58,665 bases of DNA. It comes from Clostridiaceae bacterium (GTDB lineage: Bacteria > Bacillota > Clostridia > DSM-8532). Shown piece by piece: positions 5,688 to 16,094 of the stretch. The first letter of the stretch is position 1; every line of letters starts with the position of its first letter. Below the pieces are notes generated by a model. It saw only the letters and a list, made by a program, of their open reading frames with translations, made no database searches and was not told the DNA's origin. A program made the position numbers and the translations under genes. The stretch lies in NCBI GenBank assembly GCA_012839205.1, contig DUNT01000061.1, positions 1 to 58,665 of the forward strand, written 5' to 3'.

Positions 5688-8114
5688 TTGTCAAAAAGAT
5701 TAAATAATAAAGAGATATCGTCTAATCAAGAGGAGGCATTGCACTTCAAGACTTCGGTACGAAACCTTGTGGCTTTTTCTGTTAAGGATGATGCGCTTTG
5801 GAGCTTCTCCTCATATCGTCTTGCCAATGAAGGCTCGCTGGCTCATTCTCAGCTTCAGGCAATAAACAAAGCTAAAGGGAATTATGCTTCGGAGGTTCAT
5901 CTGTCATACACCTTTGAAATAATGAATTGTATTCTGGAAGTGAACGGAAGGTCAGATGGTATATGGAGACTTAAAGATAAAATTATTGTTCAGGAGATTA
6001 AAACCTCTGCTGCTCCATTATCTGAAATTCATGAAAATTTTAGTGAAGCTCACTGGGCACAGGGTAAGTGTTACGCCTATCTGATATCTTTACTTGAAGA
6101 TATCGATGAAGTTACTGTACGTCTTACCTATTATGACCGGGAGAAAAATGAGGAAAAATCTTTTGACAAATGCTATAGCCGGAACAAACTTCAGCGGTTT
6201 TTTAAAACACTGGTTTACCCTTATCTCACCTGGGCAATTTCACAGGAAAAATGGAAGGAAATCCGGAACCTGTCTATTAAAGACATAATCTTTCCATATC
6301 CCTCATACAGAAAAGGCCAGAAACTCCTGGCGTATAATACCTATAAATGCATGGAGGATAATAAGCGGCTTTTTGTGCAGGCTCCTACAGGCATAGGGAA
6401 AACAATGGGGGTTCTTTATCCGGCAATTAAGGCTCTGGGCGAAGGAAAAGTAGACAGACTTTTTTACGCAACTGCCAAAACCACCACCAGAGGGATAGCC
6501 GAAACGGCATATAATATCCTTGCTGAACAAGGACTGCGTCTAAAAGTGCTAACCCTTACAGCAAAAGAAAAGATTTGTCTTAACGATGAAAAGGACTGCA
6601 ACCCTGATAAATGCCCTTTTATTTTAGGTTATATGTCACGTTGCCGTAAGGTAGTTAAGGAACTTCTCAAAAAGCATGACTTCTTCCCCAGGGAAATTAT
6701 TGCCCAAGCCGGCTTGCGTCATGGTATCTGCCCGTTCGAGCTTAGTCTTGACCTGGCTCTGAGCTGCGACCTTATAATATGTGACTATAATTATATTTTT
6801 GATCCCAGAGTATATTTAAGACGTTTTTTTGAGCAAAAAGGAAGGGAAAACTACCTTATAATGATAGACGAAGCCCATAACCTCTTTGACCGTGCCAGAG
6901 GAATGTATTCGGCAGAATTAAACGTCAGATTGCTTCTGGATATATCAAAAGAAATAAAGAAGGATTTGCCCGTAATAACCAAAGCATTATTAAAGCTCAG
7001 AAAAGAGCTTGCTGCTTTGGAAAATCAGGCAGGAGAACCTGCTTTTGAGGCTGGTGGCGTAAAATACAACATGGACTGTAATGCCCCTTATAGCCTTAAA
7101 GCTCCCCTTGGAGAATTTATAACAGCTACTGAAGGCTGGATAGCCGGAGAAAAAGAAGATGAACCTTACACCGATAAGCTGGTAAATGTATTCTTTGAAA
7201 TTCTGCATTTTAAAAACATTCTTGAAATTTACTCAGATAATTACCGTACTCTGATGACCGGAAAAAAGACCAGGTTTTGTCTGAAGCTGGTGTGTCTCGA
7301 TCCGAGTACCATGTTAGACAGCAAAATGTGTTCGGCAAAAAGCGCAGTTCTCTTTTCTGCGACTTTGTCTCCGCTTTGGTATTTTAAGAGTATTCTGGGA
7401 GGAAGGGGCGAAGATATTACCCTGAGGCTTCCCTCACCCTTCCCGCGAAAAAATCTTCTGGTTCTTAATGAAGATTGTATTGAAACCCGGTACAGCCACC
7501 GGGAACAGTATCTGGAATCAACTGCCAGGGCTATATATGACTGGTCGGTTTCCCACAAAGGAAATATTATGGTCTTCTTCCCGTCCTACAAATATCTGCT
7601 TGATGTATTGGAGTTTTTTAAGGCTTTGGCTCCTGATTTTGATATACTCTGTCAGAACCGGGAAATGGACGAACCTGCCAGAGAGGACTTTTTAAGAAAA
7701 TTTAATGATTTCGGAGACAAAAACCGTATTGCTTTCTGTGTCTTGGGAGGTGTTTTTGGCGAAGGCATAGACTTGACGGGAGAAAAACTTACCGGAGTCA
7801 TTATTGTAGGCGTAGGCCTGCCCCAGGTCTCCCCGGAACTCGAAATCATGCGTAATTATTATCAGAATAAAGGGGTATCGGGTTTTGCATTTGCCTATAC
7901 CTATCCTGGTATCAACAAGGTGCTGCAGGCCGCCGGAAGACTAATCAGGTCTGAAAATGACCGTGGAGCCCTATTATTGATAGATTCAAGGTTTGCTGCA
8001 TCTGAATATTTAAGTCTTCTTCCGGAGGAATGGCATCCTATCCCGAAAACTTCGCAGGGAACATCGGCTTACGGGGTTGCTTCAGGTTTTTGGAATAAGA
8101 ATAAAGAGGCTTAG
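5688..8114 (+). CDS. SOS-controlled Rad3/XPD (DinG-like) DNA helicase with N-terminal PD-(D/E)XK nuclease-like domain
   Basis: 808 residues from TTG 5688, which follows AAGGAG by six nt. Upstream starts at 5553 and 5598 lie in the promoter and operator and lack a ribosome site. Residues about 60-200 look like a PD-(D/E)XK (Cas4/RecB-like) nuclease: GRSDGIW supplies the Asp, VQEIKTS supplies E-x-K, and AQGKCYAY the following Gln/Tyr helix. The helicase has Walker A APTGIGKT (232-239), clustered cysteines (KICLN, DCNPDKCPF, GICPFE) placed like the XPD/DinG iron-sulfur cluster, a DEAH box (IDEAHN, near 394), and motif VI QAAGRLIRSENDRG. It should unwind damaged or structured DNA 5' to 3'. Its 3' end overlaps the opposing DUF5711 gene by 4 bp, with no terminator between. 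Confidence 0.88.
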   Translation: MSKRLNNKEISSNQEEALHFKTSVRNLVAFSVKDDALWSFSSYRLANEGSLAHSQLQAINKAKGNYASEVHLSYTFEIMNCILEVNGRSDGIWRLKDKIIVQEIKTSAAPLSEIHENFSEAHWAQGKCYAYLISLLEDIDEVTVRLTYYDREKNEEKSFDKCYSRNKLQRFFKTLVYPYLTWAISQEKWKEIRNLSIKDIIFPYPSYRKGQKLLAYNTYKCMEDNKRLFVQAPTGIGKTMGVLYPAIKALGEGKVDRLFYATAKTTTRGIAETAYNILAEQGLRLKVLTLTAKEKICLNDEKDCNPDKCPFILGYMSRCRKVVKELLKKHDFFPREIIAQAGLRHGICPFELSLDLALSCDLIICDYNYIFDPRVYLRRFFEQKGRENYLIMIDEAHNLFDRARGMYSAELNVRLLLDISKEIKKDLPVITKALLKLRKELAALENQAGEPAFEAGGVKYNMDCNAPYSLKAPLGEFITATEGWIAGEKEDEPYTDKLVNVFFEILHFKNILEIYSDNYRTLMTGKKTRFCLKLVCLDPSTMLDSKMCSAKSAVLFSATLSPLWYFKSILGGRGEDITLRLPSPFPRKNLLVLNEDCIETRYSHREQYLESTARAIYDWSVSHKGNIMVFFPSYKYLLDVLEFFKALAPDFDILCQNREMDEPAREDFLRKFNDFGDKNRIAFCVLGGVFGEGIDLTGEKLTGVIIVGVGLPQVSPELEIMRNYYQNKGVSGFAFAYTYPGINKVLQAAGRLIRSENDRGALLLIDSRFAASEYLSLLPEEWHPIPKTSQGTSAYGVASGFWNKNKEA

Positions 8115-9346
8115 AATATACCCAAGAATTTTTGTTTTACCTTAATTTTGACACGGCTAATAGCATCTGATGAAACAACATATGCCAGATCATCTTTTGC
8201 AAGATATACACCGGAAATATATGATTTCGCGGTATAACGATCCATAATCTCACCATCCTCGTTAATAAAAAGCACTTCAGATTCAGCTATTACAGCCGCA
8301 GTTTTCTTTTTAGTGGCTATCCCTGTCACCTTTGCATCTATATCAAATTTTGTTTTTTCGGTTCCGTTATTATTATAAATCTGTATGGTGGTCTGATAGC
8401 GCCTGTCCCTTGAAAATGCTTCGTTATCCAAAAGCGCCGCTATTGGAAATTTATTTTGTATAGCATTCGCTGCTGTTACCGTGTATCCCTCATAATTCTT
8501 TTCCCATACAGTATTGAAGGCATTATCAATTGTCATTATGCTTTTTTCTCCATAAATCAGGAGCCTTTCTTCCATTAACGGAAAGCATCCTCCAATTATC
8601 TCATTTTCTCCTTTTATACTTGCTTTCTGGTTCATTGCAGGATCTAGTATTTCAAAAATCCCGTTGGCCTCAAGGCCGGATGCCTCAAGGCTGCTTACAG
8701 CAAAGAAGGCTTTATTATATCCGGGATAGTTTACAACTGAAAAAGGATAATAATTTGAAACATTTCTGAAAGAAACCTCCTGGCCATCTCTGGAATAAGC
8801 CCGGATTGTCCGTTTGTAGCCGGATTGTTTACTTTCGGTTATTAATAGAATCCATGTGTCTGAAATACTTGCGTTCACAATAAGCTCATCAATATTTTTT
8901 TCCCAGGCTATCCTGTTATTATTTATCAAAGCAAAATATTGCCCCGCTAAATCTGCTACCAATGTTTCATCAGCATATGATATAACAAAAGGTTCTTTTA
9001 AGGTTACTGGAATGTATGCTTTCTCCATTCCGTCGGGATCAATAATTTTAACATAACTCACCGTAGCCACTGCAAGATTGTTGGAAACAGCGGAACAATG
9101 AACATTTTCATTTTCATCAAATGTCAGAACGGTTTTTACAGTTTCTTTAAGTGTATCAATTTCACTGGTACTGACGGTAAAAACACGGTTATATAACCCC
9201 GTTACCCCATCGGAGAGTACAACAAAAGGGTTTATGTCCAAGAAAGCATATAATACTACTCCCGACACTATAATCAATATTAACAGAAAGAGGGCCAGCT
9301 TTAACAAACTGAAACCCTTTGTGTTCTTAGTGTTATCTGATTCCAT
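8111..9346 (-). CDS. DUF5711-type membrane-anchored beta-propeller-like protein
   Basis: 411 residues. A short cytoplasmic N-terminus is followed by one membrane span (about 13-34, LLKLALFLLILIIVSGVVLY). The rest is an extracytoplasmic region of repeated beta-strand pairs (WEKNIDELIVNASISDTWILLITE, IRAYSRDGQEVSF, WEKNYEGYTVTAANAI), the style of a WD40/PQQ-like propeller. I recall the DUF5711 family for such clostridial proteins; no function is known to me. It is the last gene of a four-gene operon (gap 22 nt from the S41 protease). The ATG at 9346 follows AAAGGAG. No catalytic motif is apparent, so a binding or scaffold role outside the membrane is inferred. Confidence 0.72.
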   Translation of the reverse strand: MESDNTKNTKGFSLLKLALFLLILIIVSGVVLYAFLDINPFVVLSDGVTGLYNRVFTVSTSEIDTLKETVKTVLTFDENENVHCSAVSNNLAVATVSYVKIIDPDGMEKAYIPVTLKEPFVISYADETLVADLAGQYFALINNNRIAWEKNIDELIVNASISDTWILLITESKQSGYKRTIRAYSRDGQEVSFRNVSNYYPFSVVNYPGYNKAFFAVSSLEASGLEANGIFEILDPAMNQKASIKGENEIIGGCFPLMEERLLIYGEKSIMTIDNAFNTVWEKNYEGYTVTAANAIQNKFPIAALLDNEAFSRDRRYQTTIQIYNNNGTEKTKFDIDAKVTGIATKKKTAAVIAESEVLFINEDGEIMDRYTAKSYISGVYLAKDDLAYVVSSDAISRVKIKVKQKFLGIF

Positions 9347-9368
9347 GTATAAAAAAGACTCTCCTTTG

Positions 9369-10838
9369 TTAATCGTTAAATAAACTCAGTGCTTCCAGTG
9401 CTTTTGCATATTGCTTGTCATTGCTGTTTCTCAGCTGGCTTAATGTCTGGTTGAGCATATCCCTTGTTGCGTTATCAATTATACCAGTTACAGGGATGTT
9501 GTTAACAGCCTGATATTTTTTTACTGCCTCTGAAGTTATATTGTCAAAAAGCCTGTCTGCCAAAGTGTCCAGATATCCGGCAGCTTTTAATATTTTTTCT
9601 GCGTTTAATACATCATTATTATAGGCATTAAGCTCTGCGTTTTCTTCAACGGGTGCTATCTTTGATAAATTAACACCACCGGGATATATTGGATTAGGTT
9701 CAATTAATAGAGGTTTAAGTCCCACCCCGTTAATGGACCTGCCTTTAGGGGTAAGGTAATGGCCGGTTGTGAGTTTAACCATGCCTATAACTTCATCTTC
9801 ACCGGGAAAAACTCCGTGATATGTCATCCACTCGACATCAGTGACATATTTTTCGCCGTAGATTTGGCTATATTTATTATATGCCCTAGGAGTCAGAACT
9901 GAAAAGATGTTTTGGAAAACACCTTTGCCAAAGGTTTTTTGTCCTACCAAAAATCCGATTCCTGAATCTTCAATTGCACCTGCCAGTATTTCGGAAGCAC
10001 TTGCCGTATTTTCGTCAACTAAAACAGCTATTATATATTTCGGATGATTTCCGTATGAATAATAAACCTGATCACTGAACTTTTCTGACTTATAATCCAG
10101 TGTGGTTACAATTCCTCTAGGAATCAATTTTCTGGCAACTGCAACAGCCTCATCAACATAGCCGCCGGAATTTCCCCGTATGTCCAGAATAATCTTTTTT
10201 ATCCCGGCTTTGTTTATTTCCTCGATTGCTTCGTTAAACTCTTTGGATGTTCCCCTGTCAAAGCTATTAATTGATATATAGCCAATACGCCCTTCAATCC
10301 TATAATTTACGGTCTTATTTATGATTGATCCTCTTATAATGGACAGTTCTTTTTTTAAGCCGTTGCGTGTAATAGTAAGTCTTACTTCGGTTCCGGCCTC
10401 ACCTCTGATAAGTACCGCTACAGATGCGGCATCCATACCAACAACGGTTTTATCATCAACTTCAATAACTATATCACCTGCCTGTAATCCGTATTTCTCG
10501 GCCGGTGAATCTTCAAAAATATCAACTATCAGAATTCCGTTATCATGGGTTTCAAGTGTTGCTCCAATTCCCTGATACGTATTGTTTAAACTGTTTAAAT
10601 AAACTTGGGTTTCTTCCTTATCATAATATACCGAATAATCATCCAGTTGAGAAAACATACCTTTTAAAGCCGCAGTAAGAGCTTCTTCTTCAGTTATACC
10701 TTCATAGTACATTTCGGTCATAAAATCCAGCATTGCCTCAAGGTATGAACCATATTCCAGGGCATTTGCTATGGGAGAAACTGCGAAGATAACGGATATA
10801 ACTAAAACAAGGCATACAAGTCCTTTAAGTTTTTTCAT
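9369..10838 (-). CDS. Exported S41 (C-terminal processing) serine protease with peptidoglycan-binding domain
   Basis: 489 residues: signal peptide (1 to about 26, ending ANA), a short helical region, a PDZ domain (about 85-165, LQAGDIVIEVDDKTVVGM), the S41 catalytic domain, then a C-terminal PG_binding_1 repeat (about 413-468, SEAVKKYQAVNNIPVTGIID). The catalytic dyad is visible: Ser280 in ENTASASEILAGA, and Lys305 with Gln309 in GQKTFGKGVFQ, the same 25-residue spacing as in CtpA/CtpB. It should cleave C-termini of exported proteins at the cell wall. It sits between an SLH protein and a DUF5711 protein, with gaps of 28 and 22 nt, so its target may be an envelope protein of the operon. Confidence 0.9.
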   Translation of the reverse strand: MKKLKGLVCLVLVISVIFAVSPIANALEYGSYLEAMLDFMTEMYYEGITEEEALTAALKGMFSQLDDYSVYYDKEETQVYLNSLNNTYQGIGATLETHDNGILIVDIFEDSPAEKYGLQAGDIVIEVDDKTVVGMDAASVAVLIRGEAGTEVRLTITRNGLKKELSIIRGSIINKTVNYRIEGRIGYISINSFDRGTSKEFNEAIEEINKAGIKKIILDIRGNSGGYVDEAVAVARKLIPRGIVTTLDYKSEKFSDQVYYSYGNHPKYIIAVLVDENTASASEILAGAIEDSGIGFLVGQKTFGKGVFQNIFSVLTPRAYNKYSQIYGEKYVTDVEWMTYHGVFPGEDEVIGMVKLTTGHYLTPKGRSINGVGLKPLLIEPNPIYPGGVNLSKIAPVEENAELNAYNNDVLNAEKILKAAGYLDTLADRLFDNITSEAVKKYQAVNNIPVTGIIDNATRDMLNQTLSQLRNSNDKQYAKALEALSLFND

Positions 10839-10866
10839 ATAAATATATCCCTCTCAATACTTAAAG

Positions 10867-12402
10867 TCAAAAATCAATTATTCTGTCTCTGTAATCTTTT
10901 ATCAATTCTTTACCCATATAATTAATTAAATCATACATCAAATTGGCTGCATTTTCACTTGTCAAACGATTTGATGGATTAAACCTGCCCATGTAATCAG
11001 GCTCAATTATTCCTAGAATTGCAGCCACCGATGCTGCGTTCCGGGCATAAGCAGGGATACTGTCATTATCGGTGAATGGTGTTGTTGCGGCCGGGTAAGG
11101 GGCCAGGTTTTCCAATCCCAAAGCCGAAACAATCATTTTTATTGCTTCTGCATTGGTGATATATATATTCGGTCCAAAATTTCCATTTCCGTTTCCACTG
11201 GTTATACCTTTTTGATAGGCTTTTTTAATTTCATTATAGTATAAATCTCCCGGTTCAACATCTTTAAAGGGTGATATTTCAGGGACATTTTTATTTGAAG
11301 TTCTTCTTGAGTTGGTGGTAGATGAAACTCTTACATCTGTATCGGCAGGAATTTCCTTTAGAGCATTCATTAGTATTCCTACAAATTCTCTTCTTGTTAA
11401 GTATTTGCCAACCCTAAAATTTTCTCCTGTTCCCGGAAGGATTTCAAGGCCAAATAATATACTGATGGGTTCCTCGGCCCAGTGGCCATTCAGATGTTTT
11501 ATATCCGGAACCATTAATCTCGACAGTTCAATTTGTGTGCTCAAGCTCTCTGTACTGTTATAGGTCTTTAACACATCAGTTGGAAGGCCGTTCTTATCAA
11601 ACTCCGGAAACCGTGCAGTATAATCCAGGGTAGACTCCATCCACTGCTTTTTAACATATCCGCCATCAAAGCTGATGTAAGTCGGCTCATTTTCTGAATA
11701 ATTCACCTGATGAAGAGTGGCGCTTGATACAACTATTTCGGCTGCACCGCCCCATTGAACCGGGGGATTGGTGCTTCTTAAATCTGTTTCGACCATCATG
11801 TTAATTCTTTGGGTTTCGGTACTGCTCCAATACTGGTCATAAGCATAAGTTCTTCCCGAAAGAGTAACTGTAACGGTATCTCTGGTGGTACCTGTTCCGA
11901 TTGCATATACCTTTTTTTCACTGAATTCACCGGTATGATAATTGATAGCAGCCTTGGGATCAGTAATCATGGATTGGGTAAAGGAAGCATCAATCAACCT
12001 GTAAGCTGTTCCTCCGATATTAATAACTTCGGTAGGCACACGGCTGAGTTTGGTAGATTCTGTTACCTGTCCATTTGCTTTGGTTTCTCTTGTTGTGGTA
12101 TATATTAACACCCTGTTCATTGTTACGTCAGCTTCAGCGTTATTAAGTCTATAGGTATATGTAGCCGTTACCACATCGTTTTTATCGGTTTTCTTTATAG
12201 TCAGAGTTCCACTTAACTTAATGGGAACCCCGGTTAGAAAGCACATCTCTGAATACTGATATTCACTTTTCTCTATAGGATTTACAACTGAGATTCCGGC
12301 TGAATACCCCATGGTCCCTTCAACAGCCAGTGCGTCAAGCGGAGCCATAGTAAGAATAATAACCAGGATAATTGTAAATATTTTATAGCTAAGTTTTCTC
12401 AT
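10867..12402 (-). CDS. Exported protein with three C-terminal S-layer homology (SLH) domains
   Basis: 511 residues with a signal peptide (cleavage near ALA, about residue 26). Residues 40-290 form an unrecognised beta-rich region; no known enzyme motif is visible. Three SLH modules follow: about 300-350 (HWAEEPISILFGLEIL), 377-431 (FKDVEPGDLYYNEIKKAYQKGI) and 441-496 (FTDNDSIPAYARNAASVAAILGI). SLH triplets bind pyruvylated secondary cell-wall polymer, so the protein is displayed at the wall. It is the second gene of the operon, 21 nt after the 556-residue secreted protein. The N-terminal region may be a new surface domain. Confidence 0.87.
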   Translation of the reverse strand: MRKLSYKIFTIILVIILTMAPLDALAVEGTMGYSAGISVVNPIEKSEYQYSEMCFLTGVPIKLSGTLTIKKTDKNDVVTATYTYRLNNAEADVTMNRVLIYTTTRETKANGQVTESTKLSRVPTEVINIGGTAYRLIDASFTQSMITDPKAAINYHTGEFSEKKVYAIGTGTTRDTVTVTLSGRTYAYDQYWSSTETQRINMMVETDLRSTNPPVQWGGAAEIVVSSATLHQVNYSENEPTYISFDGGYVKKQWMESTLDYTARFPEFDKNGLPTDVLKTYNSTESLSTQIELSRLMVPDIKHLNGHWAEEPISILFGLEILPGTGENFRVGKYLTRREFVGILMNALKEIPADTDVRVSSTTNSRRTSNKNVPEISPFKDVEPGDLYYNEIKKAYQKGITSGNGNGNFGPNIYITNAEAIKMIVSALGLENLAPYPAATTPFTDNDSIPAYARNAASVAAILGIIEPDYMGRFNPSNRLTSENAANLMYDLINYMGKELIKDYRDRIIDF

Positions 12403-12423
12403 GTCTCAAACCTCCGTAACCTC

Positions 12424-14094
12424 TTATTGGCACAATACAATAATACCCTCACCGCTTTGGCTGTGTCGCATAATCCTGACTTCATCCCCGGGTTTAATCA
12501 GGGAAATATCCCCCACCCGCCCATTTTTTATAACGATGGAATTATAAGGTATGGTTATGTTTAAGTTAGGGCTTACATCCCAAACATGGCTTTCATCATA
12601 TATTTTGACCTCGGTCAGACCCAAAACTGAAGGAATAATTATTTCTGTGTTATCGTTGTCGCCCTCATCATTGTCTTCGCTATTGCTCCTTGTGATGCTG
12701 GCAACACGTCCCCTAACCGGTTCATCAACATAGGGAGCAGTACTCATCAGCACAATTTTACTTCCCTCTGCCACTATGTAAACACTCTGGTTAACATACG
12801 ATGAATCCAGGTAACGCATATTCCCTACTCCGTCAGTTTCAATCAGACGGCTGACAGAAAGATCAATATCAAATGTTTTCGGAGTATTAGTGAATCTCCA
12901 GCTTACTCCGTCTAATTCAACAAATGATTCAACTGTTATACTCTTTAACGGATCAACATTCTTAATACGGCCTCTGTATAAAACAAGACCATTTTGAACA
13001 ATAGATTCACTGACTATTACACTGGCAATATATTTAGTGTCGTACAGAGATTTTTCCATTGAGATTTTTAACGGGTCTAAGGTGTTTAAAGCACTTATAT
13101 CCACCAGTCTTCCGTCTTTAATTGCAATGGTGTTCTTGTCAAAGCTGATTATATCGGAACTGTTTTCCAGGTAAAGTATTCCTCCGTCAGTCATGCTGAG
13201 AAGATTATCTCTGGTGGTTTTACTATATCCGGATAAAGTTCTGAAGGATGCCTTGACGATCTTATCAATTCCGTCATATTCCTTCTTCGTGGCAAAATAG
13301 ACTGTTCCTCCGAATCTTTTAGGAGGCAGTTCCTTATATTCGCTACTGTACTTAAAGTTTTGTATTCCTATACCGGGAGTATATTCCCATCTTCCGTTAA
13401 TGAACTCCTGCACTCCTGATACAGCAAGTGAAGTGTTAATACTGTCGAAAAACTCAATTTTCCCTCTATATATTCCGCCGATGGGTCTGGTCTGCTTTTC
13501 TATATCAATACCTGCTATATGGATGTTGGGGCCGTTTGTCTGTGCCAGAACCCGTATCCTGTCCCCCACCACAATCTCAGAAATTGTGCAAGGCCGGTTG
13601 TTTTTATAAATGGGAATGGTTCCTGATAAAGTATAATTTACAAAGCTACCATCATCCTTTTTTAAAATCAGCCAAGCTGCCCCTTTTAAATGGACTGTAC
13701 CGTACACAGATGTATAATAGCTTTTTGTGCTGATTTTTTCTATATATCCTTCCCTGTCCAGCTTTATAAATGCCATATCTCCCGGCTGAATATCATCGAC
13801 ACTAACCTCATATCCGTCCCTCAAAACCGGTATATCATACCCGTACGTAAAACTGCGAAGGGTAATCAGCCTGTCGGTTGTGTCGGGATTCATTCCTGAA
13901 CCATCTTCGAAATAGAGAGTGATATACCCCAGTGAGGGGTTATTCTCCTTGACAACACCGCTGATAAGCCCATCTTCCTCTGTCTGTCCGGGAGCATAGG
14001 TTTGTGCAAAAATATAATTACCTGAACCATAGGTTGATAAAACGGCTATTGTTAGTATGAGAACGAAAACAACAACTGCTTTTTTAAACTGCAT
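12424..14094 (-). CDS. Exported repeat protein of unknown function, first gene of envelope operon
   Basis: 556 residues with a signal peptide (hydrophobic core 6-24, likely cleavage after IFA). I do not recognise a named family with certainty. The mature chain appears to contain about six beta-rich repeats of roughly 75-90 residues. The clearest shared end is of the type I-x-x-N-x-R-x-x-x-I-S-x-I-x-x-G-D-x-x-R-V: IYKNNRPCTISEIVVGDRIRV, IAIKDGRLVDISALNTLDPL and VIKNGRVGDISLIKPGDEVRI. This resembles small OB/S1-like barrels such as DUF5666-type repeats (an impression, not a search). An acidic linker (NSEDNDEGDNDN) precedes the last repeat. The ATG follows TTGGAGG. The operon partners point to the cell surface. 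Confidence 0.75.
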   Translation of the reverse strand: MQFKKAVVVFVLILTIAVLSTYGSGNYIFAQTYAPGQTEEDGLISGVVKENNPSLGYITLYFEDGSGMNPDTTDRLITLRSFTYGYDIPVLRDGYEVSVDDIQPGDMAFIKLDREGYIEKISTKSYYTSVYGTVHLKGAAWLILKKDDGSFVNYTLSGTIPIYKNNRPCTISEIVVGDRIRVLAQTNGPNIHIAGIDIEKQTRPIGGIYRGKIEFFDSINTSLAVSGVQEFINGRWEYTPGIGIQNFKYSSEYKELPPKRFGGTVYFATKKEYDGIDKIVKASFRTLSGYSKTTRDNLLSMTDGGILYLENSSDIISFDKNTIAIKDGRLVDISALNTLDPLKISMEKSLYDTKYIASVIVSESIVQNGLVLYRGRIKNVDPLKSITVESFVELDGVSWRFTNTPKTFDIDLSVSRLIETDGVGNMRYLDSSYVNQSVYIVAEGSKIVLMSTAPYVDEPVRGRVASITRSNSEDNDEGDNDNTEIIIPSVLGLTEVKIYDESHVWDVSPNLNITIPYNSIVIKNGRVGDISLIKPGDEVRIMRHSQSGEGIIVLCQ

Positions 14095-14225
14095 CTATAG
14101 CCTCCAAAAAGATTTATTCTAAAAGATTTATCGGCAATTAGAGCAAAAGTGTAAATAAAATATACTTTACGCTTTTATGACAAATGATTTTGTCATCCTG
14201 AGAGTACGGTGTCAAATGATCTTTA

Positions 14226-15116
14226 TTAAAGAATATTTTTCCGAAATTTTAGCTCGGTAATGACCATTCCCGATAATATAAGAAGGCTGCCAATAATAGT
14301 TTGAATTGTTAGAACCTCAGTATTCCCATGAATATCCGGCACAATTAAGGCAAAGATTGCACCGAAAACCGGCTCACAGGTCAGAATCAGAGCTGTTCTG
14401 GTGGGGGTTGTGTATTTCTGGGCTATGGTCTGAACACTATAACCAAATGCTGTTCCCAATGCTCCTGTATAAAGGATGGTAAGAATAACTTTGGAATCAA
14501 AAGCGATAGGATCCGGATTATCAGATGTAAAAGCAACTCCTGCCCAGGTTATAAGGTAGAATACGGCTGTTGCCGCAACTTGAATAAATGCCAGATGATA
14601 TATATTCATATCTGATGCAAACTTGTCAATAAAAATTATCTGTAGTGCAAAACATATTGCACAAATAAGAGTTAAGGTATCACCTTTTACCCAATTTCCC
14701 TGGAAACCTGTAAGAAAAAAAAGCCCCACTGCTGCCAGAAAAACTCCTATAACTGCGTTCACAGGCGGTCTCTTTTTTAATAGAAATACCGATATTATAG
14801 GAACCATAATCACACAGAGCCCGGTTATAAAGGCTGAATTGGAAGCCGTTGTGGTTTTAAGTCCCAGAACCTGAAGCATCATGCCGGCATACAGCAGAAC
14901 AGCAATTAAAGAACCCCGCATTATATCGCCCAGATTTATTCCCTTAAGTCTTTTATTAAAAACAATTGCCAATATAATTGAAGCCACCAGAAATCTCATG
15001 GCAAGGTAAGCGTAAGCGGGAATGTCATCAGATATGTTTTTCATTACAATAAAAGATGAACCCCATATAATAGTTATACTAAAAATTGATAAGTCGGCCT
15101 TAAGTTGCTTGCTCAT
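14226..15116 (-). CDS. EamA-family (drug/metabolite transporter) permease
   Basis: 296 residues with ten predicted membrane spans arranged as two EamA halves. Landmarks are IWGSSFIVMKNISDDIPAYAYLAMRFLVA at the start of the first half and GALGTAFGYSVQTIAQKYTTPTRTALILTCEPVFGAI in the second, which is the classic DMT signature. Substrate unknown; relatives export amino acids or metabolites. It stands alone on the minus strand, between the CvpA gene and the four-gene envelope operon. Confidence 0.9.
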   Translation of the reverse strand: MSKQLKADLSIFSITIIWGSSFIVMKNISDDIPAYAYLAMRFLVASIILAIVFNKRLKGINLGDIMRGSLIAVLLYAGMMLQVLGLKTTTASNSAFITGLCVIMVPIISVFLLKKRPPVNAVIGVFLAAVGLFFLTGFQGNWVKGDTLTLICAICFALQIIFIDKFASDMNIYHLAFIQVAATAVFYLITWAGVAFTSDNPDPIAFDSKVILTILYTGALGTAFGYSVQTIAQKYTTPTRTALILTCEPVFGAIFALIVPDIHGNTEVLTIQTIIGSLLILSGMVITELKFRKNIL

Positions 15117-15263: not shown

Positions 15264-16094
15264 TCATTTAATTCTCAGCATAATGAGTTTGTTAAACCAG
15301 GACAGTGCTATTGATTCTGTATATGTTTCGGGAACCTTAATAATATGTATTGAACCTAAGATAGGAATAGCAATAACAAAAACTATATAACAGATGAGTA
15401 TCCCTACTGCAAAACCTGTTACCATACCTGTAATCCGGTTTGCAGTTCCTAATATTGAGCTGCTGCTTAAAACTCCGGATATAAGTTTACCTATTATTAC
15501 AACCAGCAATTTTATCAGAATAAACAGAACAATAAAAGCAATGACCTTTAATATACTGAAGGCAATAAAATCATTTACAGTTACCACAGTTTCGGAATAT
15601 AAATCTCCTGTTTCAACAGCTGCATTAGTAACAGACATTAGCTGTTTCAGCATAGTATTTTCTGCAATAGCATTCTCCAGCTCGGGTATTTTATCTGCTA
15701 TGCTCAATGCAGATTCAGATTGAGTATCAGTAATTTTCATGTTTCCTATTAAAGAAACAGCAGGTACTACCTCATTTAACTTATTGGCTATGCTCTCTCC
15801 CAGTTTAGTTTTTTGCATAGCTATCAGGGTAAGTTTTGGAGAAAGCAAATAAGCTGCAAGCATTCCCACCAGATATCCAGCAAGGCTGAAAATAGTATTT
15901 ATTAATCCTTTTATGTAGCCTTTTAGTCCAAAGAGAGCTATAATGATAACTATTACATAGTCTACCCAGTTAAAGTCAAAACCAAGAAGTAAATCAGCAA
16001 CTATAAAGAGAGCCACCGCCAATAGAAGAAGAACTAACGGCAGACGATTCATAGTTGCTGCAATGGGTTTTGGCCTACCATAACTGTGACGCAA
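15264..16094 (-). CDS. CvpA family membrane protein
   Basis: 276 residues. After a basic N-terminus and one extra span (about 18-36) comes the CvpA core, FNWVDYVIVIIIALFGLKGYIKGLINTIFSLAGYLVGMLAAYLLSPK, then a long loop and two or three further spans. The start is TTG 16094, seven nt after AGGGGGTG. CvpA relatives are linked to colicin V production in E. coli and to envelope homeostasis elsewhere; no biochemical activity can be inferred. A putative 26-residue peptide gene lies 68 nt upstream on the same strand. Confidence 0.85.
   Translation of the reverse strand: MRHSYGRPKPIAATMNRLPLVLLLLAVALFIVADLLLGFDFNWVDYVIVIIIALFGLKGYIKGLINTIFSLAGYLVGMLAAYLLSPKLTLIAMQKTKLGESIANKLNEVVPAVSLIGNMKITDTQSESALSIADKIPELENAIAENTMLKQLMSVTNAAVETGDLYSETVVTVNDFIAFSILKVIAFIVLFILIKLLVVIIGKLISGVLSSSSILGTANRITGMVTGFAVGILICYIVFVIAIPILGSIHIIKVPETYTESIALSWFNKLIMLRIK

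Follow-up and report, generated by a model that had tools for sequence, protein, structure and literature searches.

The window analysed here is a contig of 58,665 nucleotides (nt) from a Clostridiaceae bacterium (DUNT01000061.1, assembly GCA_012839205.1), labelled contig C26 of a genome of 2.31 Mb that is 99.7% complete. It carries four minus-strand genes, named here g1 (also REP), g2, g3 (S41 protease) and g4 (DUF5711 gene), and the block they form is an operon that has been conserved, and not genes grouped by chance. We propose that its products make up a surface module driven by sigma-28, anchored to a wall polymer and equipped with its own protease, outside the wall of a monoderm cell, a reading to which we give an even chance. 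The known kinds of parts are an SLH protein, a carboxy-terminal processing (CTP) protease, a DUF5711 protein and a SigD-type promoter. The operon itself, the g1 family, the family of the g2 N-terminal domain and the promoter link appear to be new, as no description of any of them was found in the literature searched. A preliminary description, made from the sequence alone, had proposed a cell-surface unit, and this unit proved to be real and conserved, with a linkage of g1, g2 and the S41 gene that extends across several families and many genera. What that description had not noted is that g1 has a long form with SLH repeats, that g2 has a predicted barrel-like fold and that a predicted sigma-28-type promoter lies ahead of g1.

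Conservation of the operon

The four genes are separated by intergenic gaps of 21 nt (12403-12423), 28 nt (10839-10866) and 22 nt (9347-9368), and g4, the last gene, overlaps a convergent helicase gene by 4 nt. The wide survey of loci used g2 as the query, the g1 profile being unsuitable for its too few conserved stretches. The named relatives included Thermoclostridium caenicola, Pseudobacteroides cellulosolvens and Anaerobacterium chartisolvens, and the nearest were Clostridiaceae metagenome-assembled genomes (MAGs). According to the neighbourhood maps, g1 and g2 adjoin in all scanned loci where both are readable (45/45), with gaps or overlaps mostly below about 60 nt, and g2 is followed by the S41 gene in 39 loci. 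Outside these 39, six contigs end too early, one S41 gene lies 3.6 kb off and two loci have lost it. The g1-g2-S41 core was found in the Thermoclostridium-like, Pseudobacteroides and Anaerobacterium lineages. Of the order's 33 genomes, 32 have g1, and among the other families of the class a minority have it. Two distant MAGs (L155 and L156, GWD2_32_19-like) have the g2-S41 pair without g1.

The core is flanked by DUF1934 or argS upstream and pyrG downstream in Anaerobacterium-like lineages, and by CvpA-EamA in the window. Thus, the linkage is not mere synteny. The preliminary description had also expected the four genes to stay together. This held for the core, which is linked across families and not scattered, and failed for DUF5711, which follows the core only in the family of the window and is unlinked in other families, often adjoining CvpA. 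Independent surface genes sharing a transcript but no joint function would agree with a DUF5711 gene added in one family only and with a protease gene lost alone twice (see below). Nevertheless, g1 and g2 are never apart in the 45 loci and the gene order is kept in contexts as different as pyrG and CvpA-EamA, so that we consider such a loose neighbourhood unlikely.

Architecture of the four products

Hydropathy predicts signal-peptide-like N-termini in g1, g2 and g3 and an N-terminal transmembrane stretch in g4. The Pfam families found over their cut-offs were SLH in g2, S41, PDZ and PG_binding_1 in g3 and DUF5711 in g4. Together with the coordinates, these data bear out the open reading frames, order, strand, gaps and export of all four products as first described.

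The AlphaFold2 model of whole g2, with both parts folded together (mean predicted local distance difference test, pLDDT, 87), shows long antiparallel strands and, C-terminal to them, three SLH repeats, two of which pass the Pfam threshold. The SLH part matches the Sap and SpaA structures (Z 16-20), with Z 20.0 and a root-mean-square deviation (rmsd) of 2.7 over 172 aligned residues for Sap SLH 3pyw. Its TRAE motifs are partly degenerate (TRRE, TNAE, TSEN), the motif Arg occurring in SLH1 only (TRRE). Thus, g2 resembles the SLH-anchored surface proteins of monoderms, Sap and SpaA, in the fold of the trimer and in the presence of a CsaB-type enzyme in the genome, but it differs from them by its C-terminal SLH region, the barrel-like domain that precedes it, its fixed partner genes and its degenerate motifs.

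For the N-terminal part of g2, the best structural matches were outer-membrane barrels, namely NanC (Z 13.1, 180 aligned, rmsd 3.8) and CymA (Z 12.7 over 216 residues). Plain Foldseek gave no confident match for this domain; its matches to pore-forming proteins were weak and poorly aligned (TM <0.2) and were set aside, and a PDB sequence search returned nothing useful. Strongly membrane-compatible nine-residue strand faces amount to 2.7% in g2, versus 12% in NanC, 11% in OmpG and 4% in OmpX; the same measure gives 2-3% in the soluble g1 and g4. Because no Omp85 was found in the genome and the strand faces are like those of soluble proteins, not NanC or OmpG, an outer-membrane protein was rejected, and the model predicts a soluble barrel of porin-like topology. 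OmpM of diderm Terrabacteria has an N-terminal SLH domain, a coiled coil and a C-terminal outer-membrane barrel (PMC10628300). Like OmpM/SlpA, g2 combines an SLH domain with a beta-barrel-type fold in a single chain. However, the order is reversed (barrel, then SLH), the model has no coiled-coil stalk and neither the strand faces nor the genome fit a membrane barrel, so that a tether of the OmpM type was discarded as well.

The genome of the window gave no match to Omp85 or to a TolC-type OEP, which fits a monoderm cell. PS_pyruv_trans occurs in two places in this genome, and the presence of a CsaB-type pyruvyl transferase means that the cell may make the usual ligand of SLH domains. SLH repeats number 27 in the genome. 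In its contig C41 (L171:17219-19501), a single protein of 760 aa joins a group 1 glycosyltransferase to a CsaB-type pyruvyl transferase that follows it. Among the relatives, Anaerobacterium chartisolvens has eight OEP matches and no Omp85, and in the distant MAG L156 an OEP (TolC-type) protein (L156:10505-11653) is encoded directly after the g2-S41 pair, with no Omp85 match in that genome.

No Pfam family over cut-off and no immunoglobulin (Ig) domain were detected in g1, and a PDB sequence search was not useful. Its AlphaFold2 model (mean pLDDT 83) consists of six small beta domains, in which the six repeats noticed at the outset are visible. The structural matches were OB folds (ribosomal S1, cold-shock, SSB, EF-P) at Z of about 4.5-8, mostly covering single domains. 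In most other genera, g1 is about 1000 aa long, with about 450 additional N-terminal residues bearing SLH repeats. Every long g1 with a readable N-terminus scored positive for SLH, and the short and middle forms had none. A tree requires at least four changes between the long and a shorter form, and the branches that force them are well supported. The long form is retained in one species (L123) of the genus to which the window belongs. All complete g2 sequences examined align through the C-terminal SLH region, i.e., SLH is kept. Since the SLH repeats of g1 were lost repeatedly and those of g2 were kept, the simplest reading of these sequences is that g2 may take over the anchoring of g1. An independent loss of the SLH part of g1 was also observed in a distant Bacillota MAG (L142:8136-9863, 575 aa).

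A long g1 with N-terminal SLH repeats has a layout common among S-layer proteins, and at the level of domains, g1 matched best the S-layer protein of Viridibacillus arvi, in its self-assembly domain (Z 8.0). Both would agree with an operon for an S-layer or S-layer-like coat, in which g1 and g2 form a lattice and the protease matures the coat. However, Z 8.0 lies within the range of unrelated matches, the short g1 carries no anchor itself, and the protease is gone in two species. Moreover, the codon usage of g1 is unlike that of a highly expressed gene, a weak test here and uninformative on expression since ribosomal genes hardly differ from the rest of the genome. The Clostridium thermocellum S-layer protein Cthe_2348 was described as Ig-related (PMC3039559), unlike g1; homology between the two was considered and is unsupported by the literature found. 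We thus regard an S-layer operon as rather unlikely.

The third product, g3, lies above the TIGR00225 cut-off and is closest in PDB to CtpB (E 1e-57). Ser280, singled out in the preliminary description, is the residue expected to be the catalytic serine, in a triad with Lys305 and Gln309, and the three residues are invariant in 39/39 proteins. The peptidoglycan-binding region is likewise kept in all 39 relatives. Thus, g3 shares the Ser-Lys-Gln triad and the PDZ domain of the CtpB/CtpA proteases. It differs from them in being a second copy beside surface genes: the usual copy, the one other S41 protease of the genome, is in an ftsE-ftsX-M23 cluster (G000:C4), separate from g3. Two species (G002 and G012, loci L114 and L118) have lost the S41 gene and kept the other three. 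In these 99% complete genomes, no S41 match above 35% identity is left, versus 52-78% for the orthologues of congeneric genomes. Processing of a partner by the protease, as first proposed, is therefore at most dispensable and was not supported in that form; cleavage of a neighbouring product is possible and compatible with the sequences, and would not be needed in these two species. Faster evolution of g1 after the loss of the protease was suggestive in G002, not in G012, and was dropped.

The last product, g4, belongs to PF18975 (47.4 bits for a gathering score of 26.3, E 2e-12), and a hydrophobic stretch from residue 14 is its predicted N-terminal anchor. Its profile matches propellers (SconeE propeller chains, E 8e-7; PQQ propeller, E 0.003), and no paper on the function of DUF5711 was found in the literature searched. 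A membrane-anchored propeller beside a protease could also relay the state of the wall, as a unit for sensing or signalling wall stress. CtpB acts in a sporulation pathway of Bacillus, and the closeness of g3 to it would agree with such a role. However, the operon contains no recognisable signalling gene (anti-sigma, kinase, rhomboid), the rest of it stays intact after loss of the protease, and DUF5711 is unlinked outside the family, which makes this role very unlikely.

The predicted promoter ahead of g1

A box resembling the SigD consensus, TAAA-N15-GCCGATAT (PMC5200910), precedes g1 and is followed, before the gene, by a clear ribosome-binding site. We predict from it a sigma-28-type promoter. 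Across relatives, the motif was T[AT][ACT]A-N16-[GAT]CCGATA[AT], and its -10 box, [GAT]CCGATA[AT], was counted within 150 nt of the g1 start. It was found in 31 of 42 loci versus 0.7 expected from shuffles. The same box occurred in 0-2 loci each for g2, S41, DUF5711, CvpA, EamA, NFACT, the helicase and another neighbour. The -35 element varies by lineage at nearly equal spacing, being TAAA in Anaerobacterium-like genomes, TTCA in Thermoclostridium-like MAGs and TTTA in the genus of the window. The genome's own flgF-flgG operon is preceded by TAAA-N16-GCCGATAA. Thus, the g1 box is near the consensus of the SigD regulon and common to the flgF operon, but it differs by the drift of the -35 element from TAAA, by a spacer of 16 and by its target, an undescribed surface operon.

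Elsewhere in the genome (contig C64, L245:11459-16558), a secreted protein of 1700 aa with no Pfam family has TAAA-N15-GCCGATAA 54 nt upstream of its gene, which is a candidate for a further sigma-28 target.

A proposed surface module and its surroundings

We hypothesize that g2 would bind the pyruvylated secondary wall polymer via its SLH trimer, the barrel-like domain being held outward. In its turn, g1 would be an extended rod of OB-like domains, with its own SLH anchor in relatives and held by g2 in the short form, so that g1 and g2 would form one surface element on the pyruvylated wall polymer. The protease would be wall-bound, of CtpB type, and would trim or clear proteins at the site of the module, and the g4 propeller may be its docking partner at the membrane. 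SigD has been linked to autolysins (PMC5200910). If the flagellar sigma factor transcribes the operon, the module would belong to the programme of motility and cell separation, as Bacillus autolysins do.

Several points weigh against this proposal. The window promoter has TTTA and not TAAA at -35, and FliA (sigma-28) was not found in the searched 1.03 of 2.31 Mb of the genome, where the one strong sigma match was SigG. Two species do without the S41 gene, DUF5711 joins the core in a single family, and the codon usage of g1, weak as this test is, shows no sign of high expression. Also, we infer the contact between g1 and g2, and experimental data on any member of the operon were not found in the literature searched. 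Going further, the module could be a hitherto undescribed machine on the surface of monoderm Clostridia that comes on together with the flagellar sigma factor. The SLH-anchored soluble porin-like barrel (g2) and the OB rod (g1) would then serve as an element of the wall coat, such as a sleeve or a pore that crosses the outer zone of the wall while the cell moves or separates, and a CTP protease would be dedicated to it; we judge this version quite unlikely.

If the proposal of a wall-anchored module is true, cellulolytic and thermophilic Clostridia have a widely kept surface module tied to the motility sigma factor. Two families without assigned function, g1 and the g2 N-terminal domain, would also gain a context testable in cultured species, for instance Thermoclostridium caenicola, Anaerobacterium chartisolvens or Pseudobacteroides cellulosolvens. 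Since g1 has lost its SLH anchor repeatedly and g2 has not, these lineages offer a natural experiment on the anchoring of one surface protein by another. The two species lacking the protease are a natural test of the need for it.

Table 1. Features of the operon and of its neighbourhood (positions in the window).
Feature	Position	Strand	Description
g1 gene	12424..14094	-	556 aa; secreted; six OB-like domains; short form, lacking SLH repeats
OB-like domain array of g1 (residues 40-556)	12427..13977	-	AlphaFold2 model
g2 gene	10867..12402	-	511 aa; barrel-like N-terminal domain and C-terminal SLH trimer
g2 N-terminal barrel-like domain (residues 36-295)	11518..12297	-	long antiparallel strands; AlphaFold2
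g2 SLH trimer (residues 299-498)	10909..11508	-	Pfam SLH 70 bits; Sap SLH structure match
g3 gene	9369..10838	-	489 aa; CtpB-type S41 protease with PDZ and PG_binding_1; Ser280-Lys305-Gln309
g3 peptidoglycan-binding domain (residues 407-462)	9453..9620	-	PF01471, E 8.7e-14
g4 gene	8111..9346	-	411 aa; DUF5711; N-terminal membrane anchor and beta-propeller
Predicted sigma-28/SigD-type promoter	14128..14155	-	TTTA (14155-14152), N16, GCCGATAA (14135-14128)
EamA transporter gene	14226..15116	-	upstream neighbour; outside core, missing from most relatives
CvpA (colicin V production) gene	15264..16094	-	upstream neighbour conserved in the family of the window

In the window, the core operon lies between CvpA and DUF5711. 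Outside the family, DUF5711 adjoins CvpA in four loci (L090, L094, L105 and L106), and in L090 it is near a DUF4340/ABC-type cluster. A strong terminator-like hairpin was also observed on the minus strand at the boundary between CvpA and EamA (15181-15156).

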